Shown here piece after piece: positions 34,556-60,437 of a DNA stretch of 64,000 bases. The DNA is from a virus. Under the pieces are notes generated by a model. It was not told the DNA's origin. It saw only the letters and a list, made by a program, of their open reading frames with translations, and did not search any database. Both the position numbers and the translations under genes were made by a program. The stretch's first letter is position 1, and each line of letters opens with the position of its first letter. The stretch covers positions 1 through 64,000 of IMG/VR virus record IMGVR_UViG_3300044640_001495; one strand, 5' to 3'.

Positions 34556-36457
34556 ATGTCTAAGATCATCGGTATCGATTTAGGTACCACAAACTCATGT
34601 GTAGCTGTTATTGAAAACGGCATCCCCAAAGTAATTGAAAATGCAGAAGGTGCTAGAACAACACCTTCAATCGTTGCCTACGGCAAAGATGAAATTCTCG
34701 TAGGTGCTTCAGCAAAACGTCAATCAGTTACTAACCCCAAAAATACAATCTATGCTTCAAAGCGTTTGATTGGACGCAAGTTTAAAGAGGAAGCTGTTCA
34801 AAAGGACATCAACCTTATGCCCTACGAAATCATGGAAGCCAAGAATGGCGATGCATGGGTTCGTGCTAATGGTCAAGAGTTGGCGCCTCCACAAATCTCA
34901 GCAGAAGTTTTGCGTAAGATGAAAAAGACAGCGGAGGATTATCTAGGTCATGAAGTTACTCAAGCAGTTATCACAGTTCCTGCGTACTTTAACGACAGCC
35001 AAAGACAAGCTACTAAAGACGCTGGACAAATCGCAGGCCTGGAGGTACTCCGTATTATTAACGAGCCTACTGCGGCAGCTCTTGCTTATGGCGTTGATAA
35101 AGCTGATAAAAGAGATAGGAAAATTGCTGTTTACGATCTTGGTGGCGGTACATTCGATGTTTCGATCATCGAAATAGCCAACGTAGATGGAGACAAGCAG
35201 ATCGAAGTATTGAGCACAAACGGCGATACATTCCTTGGCGGTGAAGACTTTGACCAACGTATTATGGATTACTTGGTTGAAGAATTCCGCAAGGATCAAG
35301 GTGTTGATCTAACCAAAGATGTACTTGCTCTACAGCGTTTAAAAGAATCTGCTGAGAAGGCAAAAATTGAATTGTCTAGCTCTGCAAGCACAAGTGTTAA
35401 TTTGCCATACATCACAGCAGACGCAAGTGGCCCTAAGCACATGAATATCACTATTAGCCGTAGCAAGTTAGAACAGCTTGTTGACGAGTTAATCACTCGC
35501 TCAATTGAGCCATGTAAAGTTGCCATGAAAGATGCAGGTGTCACAGCCGCTGACATCGATGAAGTTATTCTTGTTGGTGGTATGACACGTATGCCAAAGG
35601 TACAAGAAGCCGTTGAAAAATTATTTGGCAAGGCACCACGTAAGGATGTTAATCCAGACGAAGCTGTTGCCGCAGGTGCCGCAGTACAAGGTGCTGTTCT
35701 CGGTGGCGATCGTACTGATGTGTTGTTGCTAGATGTGACTCCACTGAGTTTGGGTATTGAAACAATGGGCGGTGTGTTTGCAAAGGTTATTCAAAAGAAC
35801 ACAACCATTCCGACTAAGGGACAGCAGACATTCTCAACAGCAGAAGACAATCAACCTGCGGTGACTATCAAGGTATTCCAAGGTGAGCGTGATCTAGTAC
35901 AATACAACAAATTGCTAGGTGAATTCAATCTTGAAGGTATTCAACCGCAACGTCGTGGACAGCCGCAAATCGAAGTTACATTTGATATTGATGCTAACGG
36001 TATCATGAATATCTCGGCCAAGGACAAGAGCACAGGCAAAGAAAACAAGATCACTATTAAATCAGATAGCGGTCTAAGCAAAGAAGAAATTGAACGCATG
36101 GTACGTGAAGCTGAAGAAAATGCAGAGAGTGATCAAAAAGCTCGAACATTAATTGATGCTCGCAACCAAGCTGAAGCAACTGTACATGAAGTTAAAAAAG
36201 ATCTTGAAGAATTTAAAGATGAATTAACTGATACAGAAAAGACAGAAATCGAGACAGCAGTTAAATCAGTCGAAGACGCTATGAAAGAAGATGACGCTGA
36301 TAAAATTAAAGCTGAACTCGAAAAAGTTTTTCCGGCAATGAAAACATTGTTGGAGAAAAAGCAGGCCAAGGAACAGGCAGCTCAGGCGCCTCAACCAGAA
36401 GCCAAAGCAGATGACAATGTGGTAGACGCTACGTTTACAGAAACTAAGTCTAGCTAA
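34556..36457 (+). CDS. dnaK: Chaperone DnaK (Hsp70)
   Basis: The 633 residues are full length. [14 protein letters not shown] is phosphate loop 1, [15 protein letters not shown] loop 2, and [14 protein letters not shown] the adenosine motif; the substrate domain contains [14 protein letters not shown] and ends with an acidic lid tail. The C-terminal EEVD-like end of bacterial DnaK is replaced by [11 protein letters not shown] complete Hsp70 is rare in phages. DnaJ and GrpE are not in the window, so host co-chaperones are probably used. It heads a group with Hsp20 and ClpS under a late promoter. Confidence 0.97.
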
Positions 36458-36464
36458 TTGTCTT

Positions 36465-36485
36465 GGGGGCACCTTCGGGGTCCCC
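36465..36485 (+). terminator. Hairpin between dnaK and hsp20
   Basis: GGGGGCACC-TTCG-type stem with one mismatch is followed by a weak T-rich stretch. It may be an attenuator or RNA-processing site rather than a full terminator. Confidence 0.5.
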
Positions 36486-36513
36486 ATTGTTCTTACTTTA
36501 TAAGGAGACTATT

Positions 36514-36960
36514 ATGAACAATAACGCATTACAAAGAATTGAAGCTATTAATAGAGCACTGATTGGTTTTGACACCATGTTCGACCAAATGGAACGTAGA
36601 TTTTCCAACAGTGTGTCCAACAACTATCCTCCGCACAATATACTCAAGACTGGTGAGAATCAGTATGAGATTCAAATTGCTGTGACAGGATTTGAAAAAT
36701 CGGAAATTTCCGTAACTGTAGAAGCTAATGTGCTTACAGTAAAAGGCGAAGGAGCAGAATCTGTTCGCCATGAGAATCCGGAAATTGTTTACTTGCATCG
36801 TGGTCTAGCCACCCGCGACTTTGTTCGTGAGTTTCCACTTGCTGAACACATGGAAGTTGCAGGTGCAGAAATCCGCAATGGCATGCTGATTGTGAAATTG
36901 ATCCGCAATATTCCCGAGTCTGAAAAGCCACGTGTGATTGACATTGTGGAAGTTAAATAA
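36514..36960 (+). CDS. Small heat-shock protein (Hsp20/IbpA type)
   Basis: The start at 36514 has TAAGGAG 7 bases before it. The 148 residues begin with the IbpA-like segment (FDTMFDQMERRFSNSVSNNY) and contain the alpha-crystallin core (YEIQIAVTGFEKSEISVTVE, LATRDFVREFPLAEHMEV, GMLIVKLIRNIPE). It is a holdase preventing aggregation, possibly for virion proteins. The dnaK and hsp20 leaders share TCTTACTTTA-AAGGAG, indicating a duplicated ribosome-site region. Confidence 0.92.
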   Translation: MNNNALQRIEAINRALIGFDTMFDQMERRFSNSVSNNYPPHNILKTGENQYEIQIAVTGFEKSEISVTVEANVLTVKGEGAESVRHENPEIVYLHRGLATRDFVREFPLAEHMEVAGAEIRNGMLIVKLIRNIPESEKPRVIDIVEVK

Positions 36961-36968
36961 TCAATCAA

Positions 36969-36986
36969 TGGGGGAGAAATCCCCCA
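36969..36986 (+). promoter_or_regulatory. mRNA hairpin before clpS
   Basis: TGGGGGA-GAAA-TCCCCCA is a perfect 7-bp GNRA-loop hairpin without a T-run. It probably protects or punctuates the transcript between hsp20 and clpS. Confidence 0.5.
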
Positions 36987-37001
36987 GTTGGAGAAATAAA
37001 A

Positions 37002-37304
37002 ATGACCACTGAAATTCAAATAGAAGAAAAAATTATAACAAGTTTACAGCCACCTAAAATGTGGAAAGTAATCGTGCTCAACGATGAAAAGACTCCTATG
37101 GAGTTTGTGATAGAATTGTTAACTGACATATTTAAACACAGTGTAAGTGCAGCCAAAGATATCACTCTGGAAATACATAATTCTGGCAGTGCTGTGGCAG
37201 GAGTCTACACTCATGAGATTGCCGAGACCAAAGGCATAGAATCAACTCAACTGGCTCGAAGTAATGGGTTTCCATTGCGCATCACACTAGAACAAGAAGA
37301 ATGA
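37002..37304 (+). CDS. clpS: ClpS adaptor
   Basis: The 100 residues show the ClpS core: PPKMWKVIVLNDEKTPMEFV (N-degron pocket Asn and Asp), IFKHSVSAAKDITLEIHNSG and VAGVYTHEIAETK. ClpS delivers N-end rule substrates to ClpAP. A phage copy could redirect host proteolysis. A phage ClpP-like protease is also encoded (56442) but no Clp ATPase lies in the window. Confidence 0.92.
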   Translation: MTTEIQIEEKIITSLQPPKMWKVIVLNDEKTPMEFVIELLTDIFKHSVSAAKDITLEIHNSGSAVAGVYTHEIAETKGIESTQLARSNGFPLRITLEQEE

Positions 37305-37561
37305 CCTTTGACGATGTGCGATTAATCAAACATCAATTTACAGGGGCACGTAGATTCGGTTATTGGGTTCATTTTAGAGATCAGCGTCCCAGTTCTCAAG
37401 CCAGTGGCAAGTCCGGCAAACTAAGTATAATACGATTTGTAGAATCAGCTTTTGGTCCATTGGGAACACGTTGGCAGTATCAAAGATTCAATGTCAACGA
37501 TTATATTCTCAAGCTCAACAGTGAACAGGATCTTGTGATGCTGATACTACGTTTCAGATAA
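37301..37561 (+). CDS. Member of the small DA..F.L[KR][WF] protein family
   Basis: The 86 residues end with NDYILKLNSEQDLVMLILRF, which matches the C-terminal strand-helix motif of the tandem paralogues at 50753-53646. The middle (YWVHFRDQRPSSQASGKSGK) has a Ser/Gly-rich loop. The function is unknown. It overlaps clpS by 4 bases. Confidence 0.6.
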   Translation: MTFDDVRLIKHQFTGARRFGYWVHFRDQRPSSQASGKSGKLSIIRFVESAFGPLGTRWQYQRFNVNDYILKLNSEQDLVMLILRFR

Positions 37562-37574
37562 TTACGGAGTCATA

Positions 37575-38126
37575 ATGAGCCTAAGAGAATTAACCAAAGA
37601 CAATCACACCAATGCAGAAAGACAGGAGTTTGTAAAAATACTGTTTTCAGGAACCATAGATCCCAAACTGTACGCTACATATCTCTACAATCAATTTCCT
37701 ATGTATGAGCTGTTAGAAGTATGTGCCATGCCGCATGGACTGCTGTCTGACATGCCAGGAATCTTACGGGCCAAGGCCATTAGAGCTGACTTTGAGGAAT
37801 TATGGGGATCAGACGAAGAAGATAGACCCAAAATGTGTGCAGTGGTAAAAGAGTATATGGATCATATTATGAAAATTAAAGATGATCCTAAATTGCTAAT
37901 GGCACACCTTTATGTACGACACATGGGCGATCTAGCTGGCGGACAAATGATTGCCAAAAAGGTGCCCGGGGCTGGCAAGTACTATCAATTTGAAGATGCC
38001 GATAGTCTAAAAGCAGCAGTTCGTTTAAAAATCGACGACAGCATGGCCGACGAAGCAAAAGTCTGTTTTGATTTTGCTACACAATTTTTTAAAGAGATGA
38101 TGGAAATTGCAAACATCAACAAGTAA
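37575..38126 (+). CDS. ho1: Heme oxygenase
   Basis: The 183 residues have the proximal heme ligand His11 (LTKDNHTNAERQEF) and the distal-helix Gly motif (YVRHMGDLAGGQMIAKK). Heme oxygenase opens heme to biliverdin, CO and Fe2+. The next gene overlaps it and encodes a bilin reductase, as in marine phages that make phycobilins from heme. The product could also serve to release iron. Confidence 0.92.
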   Translation: MSLRELTKDNHTNAERQEFVKILFSGTIDPKLYATYLYNQFPMYELLEVCAMPHGLLSDMPGILRAKAIRADFEELWGSDEEDRPKMCAVVKEYMDHIMKIKDDPKLLMAHLYVRHMGDLAGGQMIAKKVPGAGKYYQFEDADSLKAAVRLKIDDSMADEAKVCFDFATQFFKEMMEIANINK

Positions 38127-38799
38127 AGTCTGGCAAACACTCATTGAAGTGCAAGAGCTGTTTATTGAACAGTTCAACAAAACCGGAAAGGAAGTATATG
38201 AAACGGGTATGGATCGCTTCAACAGCCCTGGTTGGGTTAATCGTGTTTGGACCAGTAGCAGTTATCGTAGGGCTCACGTTGATGTTGTGGATGCTAGAGA
38301 AACCAAAGGACTCTGGATGATGCACTGTTGCATCTTCCCGCATACACATAATCCTGCACCGATCTTTGGATTCGATGTAATTGCAGGCAAGAACAAGATC
38401 ACCGGGTGTTTCTATGATTACTCAGCTGCCGGCGATAAAGAACATGCTATGATGGATTGGTTTGCAGAAGAAGCACAAAAGCTAGAGTGGAATAAAACTC
38501 GCAAACTGCCAGATTGGGCAGAACGTATCTTTAGCCCTAGTATGGTAGCTGCTGGGAACGTTAGCGATGAAGAAGAACTAGCACAGATTATTGCCATGGC
38601 AAAAGAGGGCATACAGCACTATTTGAGCACGGTAGCAGAAACCAATAATACAGCTAACGATACTACAGAGGCACAGAACTACTACTGCGAAAATCAAAAG
38701 CAGAACCCGCATACACCACGTGTAATGGTTAGTTTAGGGCTTTCAGAAGAGGACGTTAAACATTTTATTCAAGAATGCCTGTTCCCTGAAATCAGCTAA
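38107..38799 (+). CDS. Ferredoxin-dependent bilin reductase (PebS/PcyX-like)
   Basis: The 230 residues match this family: SSSYRRAHVDVVDARETKGL, HNPAPIFGFDVIAGKNKITG, CFYDYSAAG, LPDWAERIFSPSM, then YCENQKQNPHTPRVMVSLGL and FIQECLFPEIS. The start is a TTG overlapping the heme oxygenase gene by 20 bases; a GTG 42 bases later is possible. These enzymes reduce biliverdin to phycobilins with ferredoxin electrons. I recall the PcyX branch being described from oceanic phages beside heme oxygenase. Which bilin is made cannot be read here. Confidence 0.85.
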   Translation: MQTSTSKVWQTLIEVQELFIEQFNKTGKEVYETGMDRFNSPGWVNRVWTSSSYRRAHVDVVDARETKGLWMMHCCIFPHTHNPAPIFGFDVIAGKNKITGCFYDYSAAGDKEHAMMDWFAEEAQKLEWNKTRKLPDWAERIFSPSMVAAGNVSDEEELAQIIAMAKEGIQHYLSTVAETNNTANDTTEAQNYYCENQKQNPHTPRVMVSLGLSEEDVKHFIQECLFPEIS

Positions 38800-38808: not shown

Positions 38809-40233
38809 ATGAGAGCATTTGAAATAATTACAGAATCAGAAGGCGGGATTATCCGTCGTGCCCAAGAGGTTAGTCAGGGCAAAACTATCACGTTTGCTAA
38901 AGATGGTAAAAAAATTAACCTAGTTAGCACAACAGTTATTCCTGAAACTGAATTGAGATATGAAGTTCAAACTGATCTCGAACAAGGTTTAAAAGATGCT
39001 CTTGCAGCACTGGGCAATCCCACAGTATATTATTACAGTAAAGTGCAGGGAAAATCCGGAGCAGCATTAATTACCCTATGGGAAGACGAAAACAAGAAAT
39101 CAATTGCGTTCGTTAAATTTACTAATACAAAAAAAGCCGGAGCATTTCCAATTGCATGGACAAATGCAGATTTTGGAAGAGATACTGGCTACACACAAAC
39201 TGATAATAAAATTGCAGAACGTGCGCAGTTTGATATTAAACCCAACAAGTTGTTTGCTACAGACATTGATATTCCTGTTGCAACACTGCCTAAGCAGATT
39301 AAACAAAAAGAAGATCTATCTCCAGAGATTAATCAACAGATTAGTCAACTGTTGACAAATGTACTAACCAACTCAACAACTCCAGTTCCGGGTGCTGATC
39401 AATATATGACAACCTATGAAGTTGATCTTGGTGAAAGTGCAGCACCAATTGCACTAGTCACCGGTAATTTTGTCACCGGTAGTTATAGAGAAGCTGAAGC
39501 AGCATTATTAACTCCTATTGGGCTAACTTGGAACGGTATTAAATCTGTACTGTTTCCAGGCGGTGGATCAAATTTATTATACGACAGTTATCTAAGACTG
39601 AACAAAACTACTTCTTTAAAAGTAAGTAGCAAAGATAAAAAAGGTGGTGCTGCTGCCGCAGTCACAGGGCTATTAAAAGATATTCAAGAAAATCCAGAAC
39701 GTTTTTCAGAAGTCACAGACAAGCCCAACTATCAAGAGATTTTAAAAATTATTAACGTAATTGCATCTAACTCTGCAATTACAGGTCCATTAGAATTAGC
39801 AGTAAAATTTGGCTTTATTGACAGTACTGATGCGGCCAATGTCCAACAGAATTTAGGCCAGGCAATTAAATATAATCCGCAACTACCGTGGGCAACTACT
39901 CCCGGAGTACAGTCGGCATTTAAAAGAAAAGGTGCAAAGTTTGAAGACCCTGCATATGATATGGGATATCACGCATTGGCAGGTATCGCTGAACTAGTAG
40001 CAGATCATTTGAACAAGATGCCAGGTATGAGCGATTTCTTTAAAGCCGTACTTGAGAGATCAACAATGATCCAGGTAAAATCTAGAATTGCCAAAGGTAG
40101 TGGTGGCGCATTCTTTAACTCTTTCCAGGTCATTTATCCGCCAGTGTTCGACGGCATTATCAAAGTGGTCGCTGGCAACAACTACATGTCTACTCGTAGA
40201 CCAGTTGGCAAAATTAGTTTTAAAATCCCCTAA
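38809..40233 (+). CDS. Hypothetical late protein with MRAFEI start, 474 aa
   Basis: It begins MRAFEIITESEGGIIRRAQE, nearly the same as the DUF6267-like protein at 9344. The body is mixed: a beta region (ITLWEDENKKSIAFVKFTNT), a middle with LYDSYLRLNKTTSLKVSSKD, and a C-terminal part with GSGGAFFNSFQVIYPPVFDG. I do not recognise a family. The N-terminal peptide and late leaderless promoter suggest a virion-internal protein. It directly precedes the curli operon but has its own promoter. Confidence 0.55.
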   Translation: MRAFEIITESEGGIIRRAQEVSQGKTITFAKDGKKINLVSTTVIPETELRYEVQTDLEQGLKDALAALGNPTVYYYSKVQGKSGAALITLWEDENKKSIAFVKFTNTKKAGAFPIAWTNADFGRDTGYTQTDNKIAERAQFDIKPNKLFATDIDIPVATLPKQIKQKEDLSPEINQQISQLLTNVLTNSTTPVPGADQYMTTYEVDLGESAAPIALVTGNFVTGSYREAEAALLTPIGLTWNGIKSVLFPGGGSNLLYDSYLRLNKTTSLKVSSKDKKGGAAAAVTGLLKDIQENPERFSEVTDKPNYQEILKIINVIASNSAITGPLELAVKFGFIDSTDAANVQQNLGQAIKYNPQLPWATTPGVQSAFKRKGAKFEDPAYDMGYHALAGIAELVADHLNKMPGMSDFFKAVLERSTMIQVKSRIAKGSGGAFFNSFQVIYPPVFDGIIKVVAGNNYMSTRRPVGKISFKIP

Positions 40234-40266: not shown

Positions 40267-40274
40267 TCTAAATA
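40267..40274 (+). promoter_or_regulatory. T4-type late promoter box (TCTAAATA) of the curli operon
   Basis: The box lies 30 bases before the csgF ATG. The leader ends TATAACCGGGAGCGAATCG, nearly identical to the leader of the minus-strand operon at 49814. Confidence 0.55.
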
Positions 40275-40304
40275 TACATAACAAGTATAACCGGGAGCGA
40301 ATCG

Positions 40305-40787
40305 ATGGTTAAGTTTATAATAGCCACCATATTAATGGCTACAGCATCAGTAGTCAATGGTGCAGAATTACAACACAATTTTAATAGTCCATCCTTTTCA
40401 GGGATTGGATATAGTTCTCACGTTCTAACACTCTATCAATTAGAGACACAGGCCAGAGACAAAAATAAAGCAGCAGCTGATGCTCTTAAAGCAAAGGCAG
40501 AGAGTGATGCATTAAACACTCCGCAGGCTAAGTTTCAAGCAAACTTAGAAAGTCGTATCTATTCACAGTTGGCCAAGCAGATTACAGATAGTTTGTTTGG
40601 TGTTAACGGTGTTCCAGTGTGTACTGCTAACAGTGCAGGTAATTGCGGACAAATGGAAGTTGCCGGTAATAACATCACCTGGAAAGTAGAAGGTACATTT
40701 ATTATTGTTAGAATTGAAAATGTATTAGATCCAAGACAATTTACAGAAATGAAGGTGCCAAGTGGCACATTTGGATTTGGAGGATAA
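40305..40787 (+). CDS. csgF: Curli assembly factor CsgF
   Basis: The 160 residues start with a signal peptide (cleaved near VNGA-20). The mature N-terminus HNFNSPSFSGIGYSSHVL corresponds to the F-x-NP-x-F-G-G segment by which CsgF plugs the CsgG pore, and FQANLESRIYSQLAKQITDS to the helical neck. The C-terminus is beta-rich, as in CsgF. In bacteria CsgF anchors the curli nucleator at the outer-membrane pore. It is the first gene of the phage curli operon, 3 bases before csgG. Confidence 0.88.
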   Translation: MVKFIIATILMATASVVNGAELQHNFNSPSFSGIGYSSHVLTLYQLETQARDKNKAAADALKAKAESDALNTPQAKFQANLESRIYSQLAKQITDSLFGVNGVPVCTANSAGNCGQMEVAGNNITWKVEGTFIIVRIENVLDPRQFTEMKVPSGTFGFGG

Positions 40788-40790
40788 TAC

Positions 40791-42026
40791 ATGAAACAAA
40801 CACTATTATCCCTGGCCGTTGTAGCAGTATTGAGTGGGTGCGCATCAAGTTCGGCTATCAAAGAAAAAATAACTGGAAACCAGTTTGACGAACCGAAAGT
40901 CGAGTCTAGTAAATTTCTAAAGAAAGACTCTAATAAATTACAACCACCAGAAGGCGGACCGTTAACAGTGGCAGTGTATGGATTTAGAGATCTAACAGGG
41001 CAACGTAAAAGCCAGCCACTGATTGCGTCATTAAGTTCAGCTGTTACACAAGGTGCTGAAAACTATCTAATCAAGGCCCTACAGGATGTAGGTGATCAAC
41101 GCTGGTTCACAGTACTAGAACGTGTTGGCCTAGAGAACTTGATCAAAGAACGTCAAATGATTCGTCAAATGCGTGAGCAATACCAAGGCCGTGATGCCAA
41201 GATGTTGCCCCCAATGATGTTTGCCGGGATCATCATGGAAGGTGGCATTGTTGGCTACGATAGCAATACACTAACAGGCGGTAGTGGAGTAAGACTGTTT
41301 GGTATTGGGGCAAGCACACAATACCAATCAGACACTGTGACAGTTACCTTAAGAACAGTGAGCGTGTCTACAGGCGAAATTTTAACAACTGTGACAGTAA
41401 CTAAAACAGTGTTAAGTTATATGGACAAAGTGACATTATTGCGATTTGTTGGAGATGGCACAACTTTAGGTGCAAATGCAAATGCATTAGAGGGTGAGAT
41501 CGGCGGCAGCATAAATGAAAGTATCAACAAGGCAATCGACGTAGCTGTACAGGCAGCAGTGATTCAAACTATTAATGAAGGTGCTCGTAAAGGACACTGG
41601 GCATTTAAAAGCAATAAAGTAAGTTCTCCGGTTGCCGTTATTCCGGCGATACCTGCACCAGTAGTAATACCTGCACCAGTAGTAATACCTGCACCAGTAG
41701 TAATATCAGTACCAGTAGTAGAGGAGAAGAAAGATGTCGTGGTTCAATCACAAGCCAAACCCGAAACCAAAACCGAAGCCGTATCCAGTGCCCCCGCAGA
41801 AATAAAGAAAGAAGTTGTACCGGTTGAAAAACTTTCAGGTGAGATGATTTTAAAGGAAGCTTCTTACATTTATAAAGAGCCCGACCTAACAAGTCAAAAA
41901 ACTTGGCAGTTTAAGAAAGGTGCTTTAGTTACAATTATAGGACAAGAGGGTGATTGGGTAGCAGTCAGTGACTCACAAAAACGAAAAGGATTTGTTAATA
42001 AGGATGTACTGGTTAACAAACCTTAA
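40791..42026 (+). CDS. csgG: Curli secretion pore CsgG with C-terminal SH3 domain
   Basis: The 411 residues have a lipobox LSGC (Cys17) and a complete CsgG domain (residues 50-275): LTVAVYGFRDLTGQRKSQP, RWFTVLERVGLENLIKER, IMEGGIVGYDSNTLTGG, RLFGIGASTQYQSDTVTVTL and SVSTGEILTTVTVTKTVLSY. CsgG forms the nonameric outer-membrane channel for curli subunits. Unlike typical CsgG (about 275 residues), this one continues through a Pro/Val repeat (PAPVVIPAPVVI, residues 280-305) into a bacterial SH3 domain (EASYIYKEPDLTSQ, GDWVAVSDSQKRKGFV). Confidence 0.93.
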   Translation: MKQTLLSLAVVAVLSGCASSSAIKEKITGNQFDEPKVESSKFLKKDSNKLQPPEGGPLTVAVYGFRDLTGQRKSQPLIASLSSAVTQGAENYLIKALQDVGDQRWFTVLERVGLENLIKERQMIRQMREQYQGRDAKMLPPMMFAGIIMEGGIVGYDSNTLTGGSGVRLFGIGASTQYQSDTVTVTLRTVSVSTGEILTTVTVTKTVLSYMDKVTLLRFVGDGTTLGANANALEGEIGGSINESINKAIDVAVQAAVIQTINEGARKGHWAFKSNKVSSPVAVIPAIPAPVVIPAPVVIPAPVVISVPVVEEKKDVVVQSQAKPETKTEAVSSAPAEIKKEVVPVEKLSGEMILKEASYIYKEPDLTSQKTWQFKKGALVTIIGQEGDWVAVSDSQKRKGFVNKDVLVNKP

Positions 42027-42027
42027 T

Positions 42028-42076
42028 GGTGTTGGAATTTTAACATGTTGAAATTTTAACATGTTGAAATTTTAAC
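42028..42076 (+). repeat. Three direct repeats of a 16-bp unit
   Basis: ATGTTGAAATTTTAAC occurs exactly at 42045-42060 and 42061-42076, with a degenerate copy (GTGTTGGAATTTTAAC) just before. They fill the start of the gap between csgG and the curlin-repeat gene and could be a protein-binding array. Confidence 0.8.
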
Positions 42077-42104
42077 AGCGGCATTTAATTTCTAGAGTAC
42101 AGAG

Positions 42105-42112
42105 ATTAAATA
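42105..42112 (+). promoter_or_regulatory. Possible late box (ATTAAATA) before the curlin gene
   Basis: The box lies 108 bases before the curlin-repeat start. A TATAAT at about 42160 and a GGTCA-A-TGACC palindrome also lie in this leader, so the subunit gene may have its own control. Confidence 0.35.
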
Positions 42113-42220
42113 AAATTACAAGAAGTAAGTCTACGGAGAGGAGTAGATTAGAGAAGTGGTATAATTATAGGTCAATGACCAGGAACTTGTCAGCAAACAA
42201 TAAACTGACATTTTAAAAAA

Positions 42221-43036
42221 ATGAAACAAACAATGACAGGCGGTTGTGGGTTGTCGAGAAAATTACTCACAGTGATGCTGATGAGCTTTGCCACCATAAG
42301 TGGTGCTCAGACAGCAACAGGTCCTAACAAGGTTTATATCGAACAAGTGGGTAGTAGCAATACTATCACAATTGAACAAGTTGGCGGGACTAACAATGTT
42401 GGCGGCGTTACTACAACTGTAGCAACGACAGTAGCAGGAACAGGTATTACTACACTGACTCCAGACGCACCGAGTGCTACTAACTATGGAACTATTACCG
42501 GAAGCACAAACATAGTTGACATTACACAAACAGGAAATGCTAACAGTAGCCAATACAATATTCGTGGAAGTAATAACAGCTACACTACTAATATGTTAGG
42601 CAATGGTAATCAAACTAGATTAACTATTGGCAATACCAACAACGCTACAAACAGCCAAAACGTTATTACAGAACAAATTATCGGTAATAACAATATGATT
42701 CTACAAGATCTAGTTGGTAGCAATATTACTACTAACACAGTTTTGGATGGAGATAATAACCAAGTTACTAGTAGTTTGTTAAGCAGCAGAGGTAGTGTAT
42801 CAAATGTAGCTAATGGAAACGCTAACGTGTTCAACATCCAGCAATTAGATGCAGCGGGTGCTAACGGACATGTTCTTGCTATGATGACCACAGGCGACTA
42901 CAACAGCATCACCACACAGCAACAAGGCACCAACGATACCACAGTTAATATACAAACACAGGGTAGCAACAACACTATCACAGTTCGTACAAGTAGTTCA
43001 GCTATTGTATCTCCAGCCACAGCGATTGCGAGATAA
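42221..43036 (+). CDS. Curlin-repeat protein (CsgA/CsgB-like amyloid subunit)
   Basis: The 271 residues begin with a long signal peptide (cleavage near ISGA-Q). The mature part is Asn/Thr/Gln/Gly-rich with imperfect curlin repeats of the type I-x-Q-x-G-x-x-N: VYIEQVGSSNTITIEQVGGT, IVDITQTGNANSSQYNIRGS, ITTQQQGTNDTTVNIQTQGS. In CsgA each repeat is a strand-turn-strand unit of a cross-beta solenoid. Here about ten units can be guessed, twice the number in E. coli CsgA. It should be exported by CsgG and form extracellular fibres. Confidence 0.82.
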   Translation: MKQTMTGGCGLSRKLLTVMLMSFATISGAQTATGPNKVYIEQVGSSNTITIEQVGGTNNVGGVTTTVATTVAGTGITTLTPDAPSATNYGTITGSTNIVDITQTGNANSSQYNIRGSNNSYTTNMLGNGNQTRLTIGNTNNATNSQNVITEQIIGNNNMILQDLVGSNITTNTVLDGDNNQVTSSLLSSRGSVSNVANGNANVFNIQQLDAAGANGHVLAMMTTGDYNSITTQQQGTNDTTVNIQTQGSNNTITVRTSSSAIVSPATAIAR

Positions 43037-43038
43037 TT

Positions 43039-44133
43039 ATGCGTGTCTTGTTGTTAGCCCTACTGCTAACAGTGGCCAGCCCTTCTTGGGCTGGCATTGG
43101 CACGGTTTCAGAAAACAAAGGCACAGCCTGTGAAGTTGAACGCAATAAGAAAAAGATGTCAGGAGTTAAGGGTGCTGAAATTGAAAGCATGGACACTTAT
43201 ACAACCGGTGCTTGTGTAAGTAATATAACATTCAAAGATGATACCAAAGTCAAAGTTACAGAAAACAGCAGATTGCTTATCGACGATTTTGTTTTCGATC
43301 CTAAGAAATCAGATGCAGGCAAGCTCGCGCTCAAAGTTGGTATGGGCACTGTCCGATACGCTAGCGGACAAATTGCTAAAAATAATCCGCAACAGGTAAA
43401 CATCAAAACTCCAACAGCTACAGTAGCAGTGCGTGGCACTGATTTCACTATGACTGTGGATGAAACTGGGCAAAGTCTTATCATGCTGGTTCCTAGTTGT
43501 AAAGACGAAAAAGACGTTAAACAATTTGAACTAGATGAACAACGATGTAAGGTTGGCAGTATCACAGTGACTACAGGCATTGGATCAGTGACCTTAGACA
43601 AGGCATTCGAAGCTACCTATGTCACCAGTGCTTCAATGATGCCAACTTCCCCAGTTATTGTCAATACCGTTGAAGGCAAGATAGGTAATAACTTAATCAT
43701 TGTTAAGCCTCAAGAAGTCTTGCAGGCAATTAAAGATGCCGGCAGATCAAAACGTGATACTGAATTAGAAGAACTCGAGGCAGACGCCCAACGACAAATA
43801 GCTATGCGTGTTGAAAAAGCCAACGAAAAAAGCGACCCTGTACTATTGCCAGATACATTTTCTGATGGTAAGAAAGGATGTAATCCAAGTACTACTGTTT
43901 GCGTGGCATGGGAAAAGAACGACTCTCCTGATATACAAAGTAAAGGCAAAGGTACAGCCTATAGAAGTAATACAGATCATTATGCTGAAGTTAAAACCAC
44001 AGGCTATGATTCAAACACATTTGTGTCTATAAGCCACAATGATCAATATGCGTTTACGTTTGTTGGTAGCGGAGATCCAGGCGGTAATGTAGTAAACATT
44101 GTACAAAAGACTGGAGTGTTAAGACGTCCATGA
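43039..44133 (+). CDS. Exported FecR-domain protein
   Basis: The 364 residues start with a signal peptide (MRVLLLALLLTVASPSWAG). Residues 50-160 form a FecR domain: DDTKVKVTENSRLLIDDFVF and VNIKTPTATVAVRGTDFTMT. The middle holds a charged helix (RDTELEELEADAQRQIAMRV) and the C-terminus is beta-like. Bacterial operons often pair an exported FecR protein with a CHASE2-cyclase, and such a cyclase ends this operon. It starts two bases after the curlin gene and overlaps the next by 4. Confidence 0.82.
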   Translation: MRVLLLALLLTVASPSWAGIGTVSENKGTACEVERNKKKMSGVKGAEIESMDTYTTGACVSNITFKDDTKVKVTENSRLLIDDFVFDPKKSDAGKLALKVGMGTVRYASGQIAKNNPQQVNIKTPTATVAVRGTDFTMTVDETGQSLIMLVPSCKDEKDVKQFELDEQRCKVGSITVTTGIGSVTLDKAFEATYVTSASMMPTSPVIVNTVEGKIGNNLIIVKPQEVLQAIKDAGRSKRDTELEELEADAQRQIAMRVEKANEKSDPVLLPDTFSDGKKGCNPSTTVCVAWEKNDSPDIQSKGKGTAYRSNTDHYAEVKTTGYDSNTFVSISHNDQYAFTFVGSGDPGGNVVNIVQKTGVLRRP

Positions 44134-45785
44134 AACGAATAATTTTTTTATTGTTATTATTCTGCTCTAACGCATTTGGCGCCCTAACAGATATAAAGTT
44201 TGGACGATACCAAATTGCAGACAGCCAATGGAATGTCAGTGCCTGTTTGAATACAACAACCTGCCAAATTTACAGTAAGCAACCTGGTACTATGTACAAA
44301 ATACCATGGTTCAATGGAACTTGGAGTTGGCAGTCAGGACAGTATGTACAATTTGGGTTGACAGGGAATGCCAGCTATCCCTACGAAGGCAAAGTTTACA
44401 ACAGCAACGGCACACTAGCTGGTACTATAGGCACAGGTAAAATTGTCAACATGGGTCCAGATTATTTCTTCTTTGTAGGCAATGACAACAATACAGGACA
44501 GCTATTCAGTGGCAGCTCGGGTATGTCAACTACCAGCGGAGTATCGTGGACTGGCGCACTTAATCCGACTATACAACAGGCCGATACATACGCTAACGCC
44601 ACGTATTCTACAGTACCGTTAAGTTCAGGGCAGACTGCTACATCTACTCCTAGTAATGCGGCGCCGCCGCCACCTGCGCCTACCGCAATTTACAATAACA
44701 GTTCTGGTGTGTATGTTACCAGAGCAATACCAACTAGCAATAATAGTCCAAGCAATGAAGGTCCTACTAATGCGTTTGATAACAATCCCTATACCAAGTA
44801 CTTAAACTTCGATAAACAAAATGCTGGAGTTACTATCCAATTAAATGCTGGGCGAGTTGTTACTAGTTTTAAATTAACTACAGCTAATGATGCTGTAGAG
44901 CGAGATCCAACAAGTTATAAACTCTACGGATCAAATGACGGATCAACATGGACATTAATTCAACAAGGCGCACTATCTTTGTCCGATAATAGATTTAGTG
45001 TTAGTAGCGATATCGCAGTAACTAACTCTACGGCCTATGTTTATTATTTTATGATATTCCCTTCTATTAAAAACAATGCTGGTAATAGCGTACAAATTGC
45101 AGAGATTACCTATTTCTATGATGCTAATAGTACAACCACAAGTACAGCAACTAGCAATACTATTGTTGATCCAACAACCGCCGCCGCAAATACGTTATGT
45201 TGCGGTGGATCAGCAGCCGCATTTAATGCTAACACAACAAACACGGCTAAAGTTTTAACATTCGTTAATAGAACAACTGCCGATAGCCAAGTACACATAG
45301 AACAGATCGGCACACAAAACGTAGTTGAAGTAAATCAAAGCGGGACTAAAAATAATTATGTCGAATATTACGGCAATGGTCTAAGCAATGATATTAATAT
45401 CGCACAAACAGGAAATGCTACAACACAGGCAAATTATGTTGACTTGAGAGTTGTGGGTAATTTTAACTTAGTAGATCTACAACAGACCAGTACTGGTGGT
45501 ACTAAAGGAATATTTGCTGATGTCAGCGGCAATAACAATAGTTTGCTGGTACAACAAAAAGACGGCGGCAGTCACTATGCTGAAATCACACTAAGTGGCG
45601 GTAATAAGAATGTCGACGTACTGCAACAAGGCAGCGCCAGTCATATGGCCAAAGTTAATCTAAGCGGTACACCTACTGATCTAAGTCTAACACAAAGTGG
45701 CAGTACTCAAAACTACTATTCAATCACTCACAACTGCACCACTGTAGGCGGTTGTGCTAAAATTACTGTGACACAGGGACAATAA
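44130..45785 (+). CDS. Discoidin (F5/8 C) plus curlin-repeat secreted protein
   Basis: The 551 residues have a signal peptide (MKRIIFLLLLFCSNAFG), an N-terminal beta domain, a Pro-rich linker (residues 172-190), and an F5/8 type C/discoidin-like domain (about 205-335: SNEGPTNAFDNNPYTKYLNF, SFKLTTANDAVERDPTSYKL, YGSNDGSTWTLI). The last 165 residues are curlin-like repeats (VHIEQIGTQNVVEVNQSGTK, INIAQTGNATTQANYVDLRV). It could be a CsgB-like nucleator or a fibre-tip adhesin binding glycans through discoidin. I know no such combination. Confidence 0.75.
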   Translation: MKRIIFLLLLFCSNAFGALTDIKFGRYQIADSQWNVSACLNTTTCQIYSKQPGTMYKIPWFNGTWSWQSGQYVQFGLTGNASYPYEGKVYNSNGTLAGTIGTGKIVNMGPDYFFFVGNDNNTGQLFSGSSGMSTTSGVSWTGALNPTIQQADTYANATYSTVPLSSGQTATSTPSNAAPPPPAPTAIYNNSSGVYVTRAIPTSNNSPSNEGPTNAFDNNPYTKYLNFDKQNAGVTIQLNAGRVVTSFKLTTANDAVERDPTSYKLYGSNDGSTWTLIQQGALSLSDNRFSVSSDIAVTNSTAYVYYFMIFPSIKNNAGNSVQIAEITYFYDANSTTTSTATSNTIVDPTTAAANTLCCGGSAAAFNANTTNTAKVLTFVNRTTADSQVHIEQIGTQNVVEVNQSGTKNNYVEYYGNGLSNDINIAQTGNATTQANYVDLRVVGNFNLVDLQQTSTGGTKGIFADVSGNNNSLLVQQKDGGSHYAEITLSGGNKNVDVLQQGSASHMAKVNLSGTPTDLSLTQSGSTQNYYSITHNCTTVGGCAKITVTQGQ

Positions 45786-45790
45786 AACAG

Positions 45791-45798
45791 CATAAATA
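45791..45798 (+). promoter_or_regulatory. T4-type late box (CATAAATA), leaderless spacing
   Basis: The box ends 4 bases before the cyclase ATG (45803). Within one base the predicted start is the ATG itself. Confidence 0.55.
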
Positions 45799-45802
45799 TT
45801 TC

Positions 45803-47845
45803 ATGCTGAAAAAAATCCTAACTAGTCCTTGGACTGCCCTATTAACATTGGCACTTATTGTAAGTATAAGAATCGCCGATCCTGTCTTTGTAGAAAGTGT
45901 AAGACTACGCTACTTTGACACACTGATTACTAATAAAACTCCAACTGCCAATAACATCTATACGGTAAACATAGATGAAGCAGCATTGGACAAATATGGC
46001 CAGTGGCCTTTACCAAGGGCAGAGTATGCAAAAATTATTAAAGATCTTTATGATCGTGGTGCTGGCCTTGTTGTGCTCAATGTTATCATGGCTGAGCCTG
46101 ATCGCACTGGTGGCGATGCTGTTCTCGCAACGGCCCTAAAACAATATCCAGTTGTAATGGGCAGCGTACCATCACAAAAAACTAAGAACTCTCCTCGCAA
46201 TCCAGGTAGTGCTGTACTAGGTCCAGAGTGGCAGGATCAAATTGTACAATACCCGGGACTTATTGCCAATGTACCTCAGTTAGAAAATGCAGCAGCAGGC
46301 ATTGGTATCGTTAGTACACTGCCAGAAGTAGACGGTGTTAATCGACGACTGCCCCTAGTTGTATCCGTTGATGGTAAATTATATCCCAGTATGTCTATGG
46401 AAGCACTTAGAGTCGCAGCTGGTGATTCAACCTTCCAAGTCAAGCTCAATGAAAATGGTGTTGAGAAAATGCGCATACCCAAGTTTGGTCCTATTACAAC
46501 AGATGCGTTAGGTCGTGTATGGATCGATTGGAGTCAAGAAAACCAACAGGCGAGTCTTTTGGACTTGCCCAAAAACTTTAATGGTGCTATAGTTATAGTA
46601 GGTCCAACAGCCGCAGGCATTGCTAATCCTTTGCCTACAGCTAAAGGTGCAGTGTGGCCGCAGGATGTACAAGCGGCAGCAATGGCAACTATGATCAACG
46701 GAGTGGTAATTCAACGTCCCGACTATGCCGACGGAGTTGAAATCCTAGCATTACTAGTATTCGGCATATTGTTAATTTTCTTATCGAGGTGGACTTATGT
46801 TGGAATTGGTTCTGCTGTGGTTATTGTTGGTGCCGTCGTTCCTGGTACTATGTACGCTTTCAGTAATTGGCTCATCCTATCAGATGCGACTGCAATCACG
46901 TTTGGGCTTGTTATCGTTGCTCTTCATACTTATGGCGTTAAATTTGTAAGCGAGTTCTTACAGAAGCAGGCCATAAAGAAACAGTTTGCGGGTTATTGCT
47001 CTAAAGAAGTTGTAGAGCTACTACAAAAAGATCCAGACTTAATCAAGCGTGGTGTACGCAAAGATGTATCAGTTATGTTCAGTGACCTGCGTGGCTTTAC
47101 TCCTATTGGTGAACACTATGGTGATGATGTAGGCGGACTAGGCAAGTATATGAACGGCTACATGGATGCTATCAGTCGTCCTATCATGAACAACAACGGC
47201 ATGATATTAAAGTATGTAGGTGATGCGAGTATGCACATACATGGTGCTCCTATCGAAGACACCAATCATGCTAGAACTATTGTTGCTGTTGGCCTAGAGA
47301 TGCTGGATGCTGTTGACGAATACACAAAACTGATGGAAGCACAAGGATTACCACCTGCCGCAATGGGTTGGGGTTGCAATACTGGTATTGGCTTTATTGG
47401 CGAGATGGGATCAACTGACAGACACGGTTATGACATCTTAGGTGATATGGTGTCAACCGCGGCACGACTAGAAGCACGTTGTAAGGCCTATGGTGTACTA
47501 TGTATTATTGGTGCTGAAACATACAATCGTACCAAAGACGACTTCTTTTATCTAATGATAGATAACTTACAGCCTAAAGGAAAAACTGTGGCAGACTTGA
47601 TCTATACAGTATTACGTACTAAGGGTGCAGACTACACTAGAGATAAGATAGCACACGAAGTGATGCATGACTTGTACCGACAGAAAAAGTTTGACGAAGC
47701 TGCCGCTATGTGTGCAAAGCTAAAGGGCAACTTTGGTGGACAAATGGACAAGTACTACAAAATCTGGATCGAGCGTTGCGACTTTATGAAACTGCAAGAT
47801 CTAGGCGACAACTGGAACGGCGAGTTTGTTGCTCACGAGAAGTAA
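45803..47845 (+). CDS. CHASE2-domain class III nucleotide cyclase
   Basis: The 680 residues comprise an N-terminal membrane helix (8-25), a periplasmic CHASE2 domain (30-305, with YTVNIDEAALDKYGQWPLPR), three membrane helices (310-378) and a class III cyclase domain (420-600). VSVMFSDLRGFTP supplies the metal-binding Asp, LKYVGDASMHIHGAP the Lys and second Asp, and YDILGDMVSTAARLE the transition-state Arg; the usual Asn of the VN-x-x-AR motif is Ser here (near 548). It should make cAMP or a related signal in response to the periplasm. It is the last gene of the curli operon. Confidence 0.88.
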   Translation: MLKKILTSPWTALLTLALIVSIRIADPVFVESVRLRYFDTLITNKTPTANNIYTVNIDEAALDKYGQWPLPRAEYAKIIKDLYDRGAGLVVLNVIMAEPDRTGGDAVLATALKQYPVVMGSVPSQKTKNSPRNPGSAVLGPEWQDQIVQYPGLIANVPQLENAAAGIGIVSTLPEVDGVNRRLPLVVSVDGKLYPSMSMEALRVAAGDSTFQVKLNENGVEKMRIPKFGPITTDALGRVWIDWSQENQQASLLDLPKNFNGAIVIVGPTAAGIANPLPTAKGAVWPQDVQAAAMATMINGVVIQRPDYADGVEILALLVFGILLIFLSRWTYVGIGSAVVIVGAVVPGTMYAFSNWLILSDATAITFGLVIVALHTYGVKFVSEFLQKQAIKKQFAGYCSKEVVELLQKDPDLIKRGVRKDVSVMFSDLRGFTPIGEHYGDDVGGLGKYMNGYMDAISRPIMNNNGMILKYVGDASMHIHGAPIEDTNHARTIVAVGLEMLDAVDEYTKLMEAQGLPPAAMGWGCNTGIGFIGEMGSTDRHGYDILGDMVSTAARLEARCKAYGVLCIIGAETYNRTKDDFFYLMIDNLQPKGKTVADLIYTVLRTKGADYTRDKIAHEVMHDLYRQKKFDEAAAMCAKLKGNFGGQMDKYYKIWIERCDFMKLQDLGDNWNGEFVAHEK

Positions 47846-56441: not shown

Positions 56442-57029
56442 ATGATAAGTAATAGTACGCAAGGGGCAGCAGTGAAAAAAATAGACGAATTTAACGCCAG
56501 CGATCGTATTGGCATAAAATTACTGGAAAATTCGGTTCATTTTCTAACCGGCGAAATTACCGAAGAAAACGTCAACGAATGCATCAAATGGTTGGTCTAC
56601 GAAAATCTAGAAGCTAAAGAAAAAGTTCTTACTCTGTATGTTAATTCATCGGGCGGAGATCTTTACCAGGCATTTGCTCTCATTGACATCATGCGAAACA
56701 GCAAACACATTGTTCGCACTGTGGGTATAGGCAGTGTTATGAGTGCTGCATTTTTGATTTTTACCAGTGGCGATCATGGAGAAAGACACATTGCAGCCAA
56801 CACAGGTATTATGTGTCATCAATTCTCCGGCGGAACTGACGCCAAGTTTCACGACCTAAAAGCAGAAATGAAAGAGAATGAGATGTTAAACAAGAAGATG
56901 GTTGACATACTTAAGAACGCAACCGGATTAGCCCCATCAAGAATTAAAACAAAACTGTTGCCAGCCAGTGATGTTTATCTAACAGCACAAGAAGCCATCG
57001 AACTCGGCATTGCCGATCATTTAATATAA
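56442..57029 (+). CDS. clpP: ClpP-family serine protease
   Basis: The 195 residues include TLYVNSSGGDLYQAFALIDI, the nucleophile Ser101 (GIGSVMSAAFLIFTSG), His126 (IMCHQFSGG) and Asp177 (ASDVYLTAQEAIELGIADHL), so the catalytic triad is intact. It is close in size to ClpP. It may form a phage or mixed tetradecamer with host ClpP, or act as a prohead-type protease. A phage ClpS is encoded at 37002. Confidence 0.9.
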   Translation: MISNSTQGAAVKKIDEFNASDRIGIKLLENSVHFLTGEITEENVNECIKWLVYENLEAKEKVLTLYVNSSGGDLYQAFALIDIMRNSKHIVRTVGIGSVMSAAFLIFTSGDHGERHIAANTGIMCHQFSGGTDAKFHDLKAEMKENEMLNKKMVDILKNATGLAPSRIKTKLLPASDVYLTAQEAIELGIADHLI

Positions 57030-58124: not shown

Positions 58125-58213
58125 GGACGAGTGCGCTGAATTGGTTGAAGGCAACGGACTGTAAATCCGCCACATAAGAAACATTGTAGGTTCGACTCCT
58201 ACCTCGTCCACCA
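58125..58213 (+). tRNA. tRNA-Tyr (GTA)
   Basis: Acceptor GGACGAG/CTCGTCC, anticodon loop CTGTAAA, class II variable arm, encoded CCA. Confidence 0.92.
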
Positions 58214-58222
58214 AACGAATGG

Positions 58223-58251
58223 TTGACTTTTTTTTGGATTGGTGTTATACT
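58223..58251 (+). promoter_or_regulatory. Early sigma70-type promoter inside the tRNA array
   Basis: TTGACT and TATACT are 17 bases apart, just after tRNA-Tyr and before the protein gene at 58282. Confidence 0.7.
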
Positions 58252-58281
58252 ATTAATACTGTGAACTTAAAAGGAAATCAA

Positions 58282-58476
58282 ATGCAATCGTATCGTGTTT
58301 ATGTTGAAGTGGGTTCGTATGCAGGTGAAGGTACCAGCGGTGCTTTTCAAACTGAGAGCCTTCGACAATTTGAAACTGTAGTAAATGCCCAGACATCCGG
58401 AGATGCTGTGCGTATAGCAGAAGCCCAATATGGTGGCCAAGAACGGTGCCGTGTCACGTTCCGCGGCGTTGCTTAA
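58282..58476 (+). CDS. Small protein, 64 aa, within the tRNA array
   Basis: AAAGGAAA precedes the ATG. The product MQSYRVYVEVGSYAGEGTSG, then LRQFETVVNAQTSGDAVRIA and EAQYGGQERCRVTFRGVA, has a small alpha/beta pattern like ribosome-associated or RNA-binding peptides. The function is unknown. tRNA-Asp begins 9 bases after the stop. Confidence 0.6.
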   Translation: MQSYRVYVEVGSYAGEGTSGAFQTESLRQFETVVNAQTSGDAVRIAEAQYGGQERCRVTFRGVA

Positions 58477-58484
58477 CAATTTTA

Positions 58485-58559
58485 GGTCTGTTCGTATAGA
58501 GGTTATTACTGCGGATTGTCTATCCGCTTACGGGGGTTCGATTCCCCCACAGACCGCCA
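58485..58559 (+). tRNA. tRNA-Asp (GTC)
   Basis: Acceptor GGTCTGT/ACAGACC, anticodon stem GCGGA/TCCGC with loop TTGTCTA, discriminator G, encoded CCA. Confidence 0.92.
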
Positions 58560-58566
58560 AGTTTAT

Positions 58567-58643
58567 TCCTCGGTAGCACAGTTGGTAGTTGCGCGGCACT
58601 GTTAATGCCGATGTCGGAAGTTCGAGCCTTCCCCGGGGAGCCA
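58567..58643 (+). tRNA. tRNA-Asn (GTT)
   Basis: Acceptor TCCTCGG/CCGGGGA, anticodon loop CTGTTAA, T-loop TTCGAGC, encoded CCA. Confidence 0.88.
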
Positions 58644-58648
58644 ATAAT

Positions 58649-58724
58649 GTATCCTTAGCTCAATTGGCAGAGCGCTGGTCTCCAAAACCAGAGGTTCGCG
58701 GTTCGAGGCCGTGAGGGTACGCCA
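58649..58724 (+). tRNA. tRNA-Trp (CCA)
   Basis: Acceptor GTATCCT/AGGGTAC, anticodon stem CTGGT/ACCAG with loop CTCCAAA, discriminator G, encoded CCA. Confidence 0.92.
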
Positions 58725-58732
58725 AGTTTTAT

Positions 58733-58807
58733 GGACCGTTCGTCTATCGGTTAGGACACTAGGTTTTCATCCTGGTAAGAGGGGTTCGACTCCCCTACGG
58801 TCTTCCA
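58733..58807 (+). tRNA. tRNA-Glu (TTC)
   Basis: Acceptor GGACCGT/ACGGTCT, anticodon loop TTTTCAT, T-arm GGGG-TTCGACT-CCCC, encoded CCA. Confidence 0.9.
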
Positions 58808-58814
58808 AATTTAT

Positions 58815-58892
58815 GTGGCGGTGGCAGAGAGGCCCATTGCAACGGATTGCAAATCCGTAAAATCGTGAGTTCAAATCTCACCCGCCACTCCA
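58815..58892 (+). tRNA. tRNA-Cys (GCA)
   Basis: Acceptor GTGGCGG/CCGCCAC, anticodon stem ACGGA/TCCGT with loop TTGCAAA, discriminator T as expected for Cys, encoded CCA. Confidence 0.9.
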
Positions 58893-58897
58893 AACAT

Positions 58898-58942
58898 GGC
58901 TCCACTCGTTCGACATAGTCGATGCTGTGGAGTTTTTCTTTT
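58898..58942 (+). terminator. Rho-independent terminator within the tRNA array
   Basis: CTCCAC (58900) pairs with GTGGAG (58927), with an inner TCGAC/GTCGA stem, followed by TTTTTCTTTT. It would end or attenuate the first tRNA transcript before tRNA-Leu. Confidence 0.8.
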
Positions 58943-59023
58943 GCCCCGGTAGACAAATTGGCAAAGTCGTCTCTCTCAAAAAGAGAAATTTAAATGCGGG
59001 TTCAACTCCCGCCCGGGGTACCA
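58943..59023 (+). tRNA. tRNA-Leu (CAA)
   Basis: Acceptor GCCCCGG/CCGGGGT, anticodon stem TCTCT/AGAGA with loop CTCAAAA, encoded CCA. The variable arm is short for Leu (about 9 bases). Confidence 0.85.
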
Positions 59024-59028
59024 ATCAT

Positions 59029-59118
59029 GGAAGTATGGCTGAGCATGGCTTAAGGCAGCAGTCTTGAAAACTGAAGGCTCGAAAGGGTCCGTGGGTTCGA
59101 ATCCTACTACTTCCGCCA
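59029..59118 (+). tRNA. tRNA-Ser (TGA)
   Basis: Acceptor GGAAGTA/TACTTCC, anticodon loop CTTGAAA, long variable arm (GGCTCGAAAGGGTCC), discriminator G, encoded CCA. Confidence 0.92.
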
Positions 59119-59123
59119 ACTAT

Positions 59124-59231
59124 GGACGAATCATTTGAGCAGTGTTAGATGCACACGGGTTACCTTTCCTAACCGCCAAGTGGCGTACCCCTGCCGAATG
59201 ACCTGGGCGTGGCAGTGATAATGATTCGTCC
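59124..59231 (+). ncRNA. Candidate stem-closed spacer RNA between tRNA-Ser and tRNA-Ile
   Basis: A perfect 12-bp stem (GGACGAATCATT with AATGATTCGTCC) encloses 84 bases that fold into further hairpins: GGTTA/TAACC, CGCC-AAGT-GGCG, and CTGCC/GGCAG. It fills the 122-base spacer. No ORF. Processing of the flanking tRNAs would release it as a compact RNA. I know no family with this shape. Confidence 0.6.
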
Positions 59232-59240
59232 GCCTAATAC

Positions 59241-59315
59241 AGCCTATTAGCTCAGTGGTAGAGCACCGTCTTGATAAGGCGGGGGTCCTTGGATCGTTCC
59301 CAAGATAGGCTACCA
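59241..59315 (+). tRNA. tRNA-Ile (GAT)
   Basis: Acceptor AGCCTAT/ATAGGCT, anticodon loop TTGATAA, discriminator A, encoded CCA. Confidence 0.92.
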
Positions 59316-59337
59316 ATTTTTTAAAAGGAGATCTGTC

Positions 59338-59597: not shown

Positions 59598-59603
59598 AGT
59601 TGT

Positions 59604-59677: not shown

Positions 59678-59685
59678 AAAAATAA

Positions 59686-59760: not shown

Positions 59761-59761
59761 A

Positions 59762-60433: not shown

Positions 60434-60437
60434 CAAG

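Follow-up and report, generated by a model that had tools for sequence, protein, structure and literature searches.

Why would a phage carry a six-gene curli operon that ends in a signalling enzyme, and what would it gain from it? This question is raised by six adjacent genes in IMG/VR record IMGVR_UViG_3300044640_001495 (353,123 bases), of which we analyzed the initial 64 kb, hereafter the window. The genome encodes a large terminase of T4 type whose nearest relatives are those of PA5oct-type jumbo phages (53% identity), so that the source is, judged by its genes, a T4-related jumbo phage. The six open reading frames (ORFs) of the curli locus span 40305-47845, all on the + strand, and are mostly spaced by 3-18 nucleotides (nt) or overlap by 4 nt, with the exception of 194 nt between csgG and cur1. 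As the best explanation of the full set, we think it probable that this operon uses a curli apparatus to present, at the surface of infected cells, a glycan-binding adhesin that can be swapped. What is new here is one fibre protein with interchangeable, putatively sugar-binding heads that are traded between phages. The elements of the locus are as follows (aa, amino acids).

40267..40274, +: late-promoter-like box TCTAAATA, T4-type, 5' of csgF
40305..40787, +: csgF, predicted exported CsgG-associated protein of 160 aa (PF10614, signal peptide, N-terminal FNSPSFSG motif)
40791..42026, +: csgG, predicted outer-membrane lipoprotein pore of 411 aa (PF03783, lipobox LSGC; core 40959-41603)
41868..42008, +: C-terminal bacterial SH3 domain of CsgG (PF06347, 6e-7), behind a Pro-rich linker
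42221..43036, +: cur1, predicted curlin-repeat fibre subunit of 271 aa (PF07012, signal peptide)
43039..44133, +: fecR, predicted exported periplasmic FecR-domain protein of 364 aa (PF04773)
44130..45785, +: cur2, modular fibre protein of 551 aa (signal peptide, exchangeable heads and constant curlin tail)
44190..44624, +: cur2 head H1 (QIADSQW type; no Pfam family)
44682..45164, +: cur2 head F5/8C, predicted CBM32-like galactose-binding fold (PF00754, Foldseek)
45195..45782, +: cur2 constant tail, predicted curlin-type beta-solenoid (PF07012 in homologues, model)
45803..47845, +: cyc, CHASE2 and class III nucleotide cyclase membrane protein of 680 aa (CHASE2 45848-46768, cyclase 47060-47536)

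Cur2 combines a constant tail with exchangeable heads

By scanning IMG/VR once with CsgG, we obtained 105 relatives and kept 80 of them, contigs of 280 and 372 kb included. The Cur2 tail measures about 196 aa in most loci and the head 0-565 aa, the whole protein ranging from 140 to 788 aa. Counting unnamed modules, we distinguished 13 head architectures among 52 Cur2 sequences; as for heads with a Pfam family, F5/8 type C was found in 20 of 50 Cur2 proteins and PA14 in 5 of 50. The window protein carries an F5/8 type C domain (PF00754, 2e-9) for which the top Protein Data Bank matches in Foldseek were CBM32 binders of galactose or N-acetylgalactosamine, such as 4a41 (template modeling score 0.74 of target). 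Together, these matches predict a CBM32-like jelly-roll fold for this head, and we infer glycan binding by Cur2 heads, as well as their ligand, from such resemblances.

Comparing relatives with the window made clear that Cur2 has undergone domain swapping, heads and tails having separate histories. The F5/8C head of locus L030 is 95% identical to that of the window and the tails are 66% identical; at the DNA level the figure for this head is 88%, whereas csgF, csgG, cur1, fecR and the tail, where compared, give 67-76%. In L014 the tail is 77% identical to the window tail and the heads share nothing detectable, and in L023 it is head H1 that stands out, with 88% DNA identity compared with 72-81%. 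H1 occurs in 61 IMG/VR loci, and in 58 of the 61 matching ORFs it is joined to a Cur2 tail. Each window head exists as a single copy in its own genome, and tblastn found the F5/8C head in no annotated phage. As for cultured phages, Cur2 of the Pelagibacter phage HTVC008M carries a PA14 head (2.7e-6) and that of the Methylophilales phage Melnitz is headless.

Heads of the same pool occur on a second probable platform

When IMG/VR was scanned with both window heads, we recovered 119 loci, in 114 of which the matching ORF bears a curlin tail. In L240 (3926-6265) and L230 (3926-6754), H1 and an F5/8C or jelly-roll domain are followed by a C-terminal domain that ends in Phe, and these C-terminal domains match each other at 5e-13. 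Heads of the Cur2 pool sit on this C-terminal, probable beta-barrel in L230/L255, L240, L257 and L258, the last two with different Cur2-pool heads, and L259 and L260 retain the C-terminal domain with a head that is unmatched to the pool. The C-terminal Phe is invariant in the barrel-type proteins, a TAAATA box lies 37-69 nt upstream in 6 of 6 barrel genes examined, and csgG is absent from the 367-kb record of L240. The two barrel genes that were tested against PHROG, those of L240 and L230, belong to none of its families. We consider the C-terminal domain to be a probable outer-membrane beta-barrel, autotransporter-like, and only probable because the Pfam matches to OMP_b-brl (0.0017) and Opacity (0.0067) are both below cut-off and the AlphaFold model is poor (predicted local distance difference test, pLDDT, 34); the model was not used as support. 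Since two carriers serve one pool of heads, surface display of the head would be the selected trait, and this is our main argument.

CsgF, CsgG and the curlin-repeat subunits

A first-pass annotation of the window had named csgF and csgG, a curlin-repeat subunit, a discoidin-curlin protein and, as a signalling pair, FecR and a CHASE2 cyclase, and these identities are borne out by the searches reported here. CsgF matches PF10614 above cut-off (5e-8), and its residues F26, P29, F31, G33 and G35 are invariant among 64 phage homologues, as is the N-terminal, FNSPSFSG-type CsgG-binding motif. CsgG matches PF03783 at 1e-46, keeps a lipobox cysteine that is invariant among homologues and matches the solved E. 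coli CsgG structures (3e-45). Its SH3 domain, overlooked at the first reading, is restricted to longer CsgG versions and is lacking in short ones of ~270 aa. The constriction residues of E. coli CsgG (Tyr51/Asn55/Phe56) are not retained, from which we conclude nothing because alphaproteobacterial CsgGs vary there too.

Searched singly, Cur1 falls slightly below the cut-off for Curlin_rpt (PF07012; 7e-4, 19.9 bits against 20.7). The curlin ladder is made of N, Q and G residues, and all 15 invariant columns among 30 Cur1 homologues are N, Q or G; moreover, a profile of these 30 homologues finds 8c50, a curlin-repeat protein of solved structure, at 4e-9. For the Cur2 tail, PF07012 was found in 29 of 50 homologues, invariant columns are dominated by Q and G, and an AlphaFold model built on an alignment of 37 sequences has about 14 strands at regular spacing over residues 385-549. 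Together these data identify Cur1 and Cur2 as predicted curlin-repeat subunits of the CsgA/CsgB type, which would be secreted and form amyloid. The FecR proteins (C-terminus at 43800-44130 in the window) also finish with a single pair of curlin-like strands, GGN.V.I.Q; this pair resembles the Cur2 tail too little for significance (HH probability 20%) and we do not claim it as an additional curlin repeat.

FecR and the CHASE2 cyclase form a pair that looks phage-made in this context

FecR matches PF04773 at 1e-9 and has more than 100 columns that are at least 90% conserved among 56 homologues. The cyclase combines CHASE2 (PF05226, 1e-38) with a Guanylate_cyc domain (PF00211, 1e-12), in which the metal-binding aspartates D428 and D474 as well as the adenine-selecting K470 are conserved in 38-39 of 39 sequences, and D544, likewise adenine-selecting, is present in 29 of 38. 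Of the transition-state Asn-Arg pair, Arg555 is kept in all 38, and the Asn is replaced by Ser551 in the window and in 28 of 38. The two halves of the protein are exchanged independently between phages (L023, L021, L029, L071, L082): compared with the window, CHASE2 is 94% and the catalytic part 56% identical in L023, and the figures are 53% and 85% in L082.

FecR stands beside a CHASE2 cyclase in bacteria without curli. In Paracoccus pAMI5 an exported FecR gene adjoins the CHASE2 sensor, as in the window, but without any curli link; the Burkholderia BiofilmReg locus also has FecR and CHASE2, although there a kinase replaces the cyclase as output, and disruption of the response regulator of this operon leads to biofilm loss (PMC5192318), a parallel to the phage module that is suggestive only. 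Conversely, bacterial curli operons (E. coli csgBAC/csgDEFG; alphaproteobacterial csgF-csgG) have CsgG, CsgF and curlin-repeat subunits in common with the window, some of them encoding CsgH, but neither FecR nor a CHASE2 cyclase was detected within about 8 kb of the seven examined. Because each half occurs in bacteria without the other, the combination of FecR and cyclase with curli looks phage-made.

The operon begins with a late-type element

The window box TCTAAATA differs from the strict T4 consensus TATAAATA and is one base off the NATAAATA form. The latter lies no more than 100 nt upstream of ORFs 46 times in the 353-kb genome, against 3.9 expected, so this genome uses a late element of T4 type. 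Over distinct related loci, we counted the core of the box, TAAATA, within 60 nt upstream of each ORF, other ORFs being counted on the + strand. It precedes csgF in 57 of 63 loci, csgG in 0/61, cur1 in 2/57, fecR in 0/60, cur2 in 2/50 and cyc in 15/43, compared with 75 of 357 other ORFs. The T4-type late box of the first-pass annotation is thus supported at the family level by the contrast between csgF and csgG, fecR or other ORFs, even though the window copy is not of the strict form. This distribution indicates that the operon begins at csgF with a late-type element, and the operon would be transcribed late in infection.

The 194-nt gap between csgG and cur1 (42027-42220) holds three tandem GAATTTTAACATGTT-like units and a TATAAT-like stretch, and exceeds 100 nt in about half of the relatives; it possibly serves separate expression of the major subunit.

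The six genes are conserved, under purifying selection and known from other phages

The order csgF-csgG-cur1-fecR-cur2-cyc is nearly invariant across about 80 IMG/VR loci, which answers the search of viral genomes for the same gene order that had been proposed at the first pass. Variation is found mainly in cur2 and in the gap between cur2 and cyc; lengths are steady for CsgF, Cur1, FecR and the cyclase, and CsgG varies through its tail. For close pairs, the ratio of nonsynonymous to synonymous substitutions (dN/dS) is mostly 0.05-0.15 for each of the six genes, hence all of them are under purifying selection. Many loci have unrelated cargo genes at this one spot, between or after cur2 and cyc, namely those of an amidoligase, a RimK-type ATP-grasp ligase, a solute-binding protein, a porin and large unknown proteins (insertions seen in L022, L030, L033, L047, L049, L050 and L077).

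Eight matches were obtained in GTDB, mostly on short contigs in metagenome-assembled genomes; phage-type curli modules were seen on contigs L084, L085, L087, L088 and L090, binned as Rhodobacteraceae, Flavobacteriaceae, Maricaulis and Pelagibacter. Because they are mostly short and one of them, binned as Pelagibacter, bears a phage terminase, we regarded those that have all six genes in order as probably phage-derived and not as evidence of a bacterial origin. The nearest undoubted bacterial CsgGs share ~43-50% identity, and neither FecR nor a cyclase lies near them.

By using tblastn with CsgG and with the cyclase, we found the operon in HTVC008M and in four Melnitz phages. The HTVC008M and Melnitz records hold csgF, csgG, curlin, FecR, curlin and cyclase genes in the same order as the window, the HTVC008M FecR being labelled a hypothetical protein (we assigned it by Pfam) and the Melnitz record annotating two curlin-repeat proteins. 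CsgF and CsgG with hypothetical neighbours had been reported earlier (PMC7029224), and in 2022 csgF, csgG, csgA/B, FecR, a second csgA/B and the cyclase were identified in myo- and podophages, with a histidine kinase directly upstream in the podophage version (PMC9599517). The six-gene set is thus already known, contrary to the first-pass view that no full phage set had been described. The main text of PMC9599517 contains neither Cur2 heads nor swapping (no lectin, discoidin, PA14 or carbohydrate wording). Compared with this pelagiphage curli module, that is the type VIII secretion system of HTVC008M, Melnitz and HTVC023P-type podophages, the window agrees in its six genes and in their order and likewise has no CsgE, but it belongs to a T4-related jumbo phage where theirs are ~140 kb or smaller, and it has a CsgG with SH3, a two-module Cur2 head (H1 and F5/8C) and no histidine kinase directly upstream. 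The gene preceding csgF (38809-40233) indeed has no Pfam or PHROG family.

Surroundings of the operon

Directly upstream (34556-38799) lie genes for DnaK, Hsp20, ClpS, heme oxygenase and a ferredoxin-dependent bilin reductase, which together with a ClpP-like gene at 56442-57029 make up a set for protein quality control and bilin synthesis; Pfam named ClpS, heme oxygenase and the bilin reductase, and DnaK, Hsp20 and ClpP were recognized by eye. The window also has 23 tRNA genes at 58125-62198 and a permuted tmRNA gene at 24882-25318, which fits the betaproteobacterial tmRNA model (102 bits). Melnitz likewise has a tmRNA close to its curli operon.

What the operon would do for the phage

We propose that the six genes are transcribed late and as a single unit, whose products would assemble a type VIII export machinery in the infected cell's outer membrane and, through it, curlin fibres at the surface. 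CsgG would be the pore, anchored in the periplasm where its SH3 domain may hold peptidoglycan, CsgF the assembly factor at the exit side, and Cur1 the repeated fibre subunit. The curlin tail of Cur2 would join the fibre and its N-terminal heads, here H1 and the CBM32-like F5/8C, would bind glycan; like tail fibres, the heads may be traded between phages as the target changes. The periplasmic FecR and the inner-membrane CHASE2 cyclase would act as a coupled sensor that reports the state of the envelope or of secretion, through cyclic AMP (cAMP), to a host receptor. The benefit would most likely be adhesion, the infected cell and progeny being held beside new hosts or particles, or surface glycans being masked; like the signalling, this benefit is an inference. 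More broadly, and with more reserve, a shared pool of exchangeable glycan-binding heads may be shown on the infected cell, and not on the virion, by at least two unrelated platforms, with which the dying cell would catch a particle or its next host; this is quite conceivable, yet we hold it only tentatively.

Several observations weigh against the display of an adhesin by this operon. The CsgE gate (PF10627) was not found in the 353-kb record, in a search that detected the E. coli control; CsgE is however not universal, because it is also absent from pelagiphage modules and from alphaproteobacterial operons resembling them (PMC9599517). Curlin-repeat Pfam matches are weak for single sequences, although clear in profiles, and the beta-barrel reading of the second platform draws on sub-threshold Pfam matches and a low-confidence model. 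Most of these cyclases have Ser for the transition-state Asn, so that cAMP synthesis is only putative, and a cyclic-nucleotide-binding receptor was not found in the phage, so that any cAMP would act on the host. Finally, infected cultures of Melnitz, in which the operon is present, showed no clumping (PMC9004378). For that host at least, this result speaks against aggregation on a gross scale; the Melnitz Cur2 has no head.

Incorporation of the fibres into the virion surface, which the first-pass annotation had also considered, we judge unlikely: CsgF, Cur1, FecR and Cur2 have N-terminal export signals by inspection, CsgG has the lipobox LSGC and the cyclase begins with a membrane segment, and virion proteins assembled in the cytoplasm would need no export signals. 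For Melnitz, CsgG/CsgF were proposed to act as a lysis-timing pore, a gated secretin or pinholin with the remaining genes as leftovers (PMC9004378). The missing CsgE gate, the late-type element and the lack of clumping are in line with such a pore, but purifying selection and a stable order are seen for both curlin genes, fecR and cyc, cur2 keeps gaining binding heads, CsgG is an outer-membrane lipoprotein and not an inner-membrane holin, and the claimed absence of fibre genes is contradicted by the two curlin-repeat proteins in the Melnitz record itself, which together make this proposal improbable. We give hardly more than a slight chance to the uptake channel, in which an ungated CsgG would admit nutrients or cofactors such as iron complexes (PMC7029224, PMC9599517): it would account for the lack of CsgE, for the FecR-domain neighbour and for the porin or solute-binding protein inserted beside the operon in some relatives, but leaves CsgF, two curlin proteins and interchangeable lectin heads unexplained, and FecR bears a signal peptide, without FecI/TonB partners beside it.

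Fibres might otherwise coat the infected cell and block receptors, their putative heads binding its own surface glycans. Heads of glycan-binding type that vary between related phages, and display by two unrelated platforms, would suit such superinfection exclusion, but a late-type promoter comes late for it, and we regard it as unlikely. That the module is fossil cargo, bacterial in source and without present function, would agree with the bacterial relatives of CsgG and the cyclase; it is already contradicted by a dN/dS of about 0.1 for every gene and by the order conserved in jumbo phages, pelagimyophages and the terminase-bearing contig binned as Pelagibacter, and we see next to no chance for it. 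Adhesion or capture fits better than a lysis pore or an uptake channel, and swappable heads favour adhesion.

In the ocean, curli modules are widespread among phages, and the functions published for them span a lysis pore, nutrient uptake and 'sibling capture', with no means of choosing between them. Swappable heads and a second platform yield a discriminating prediction, namely that the payload is a surface-displayed binding protein, for which HTVC008M with its PA14 head and the headless Melnitz provide natural contrasts in culture. The shared pool of heads would, if that reading is true, be the infected-cell counterpart of the tail fibre. If display is what the operon does, some phages would make the exterior of the infected cell sticky during late infection, with consequences in plankton for aggregation, for encounter rates and for superinfection.

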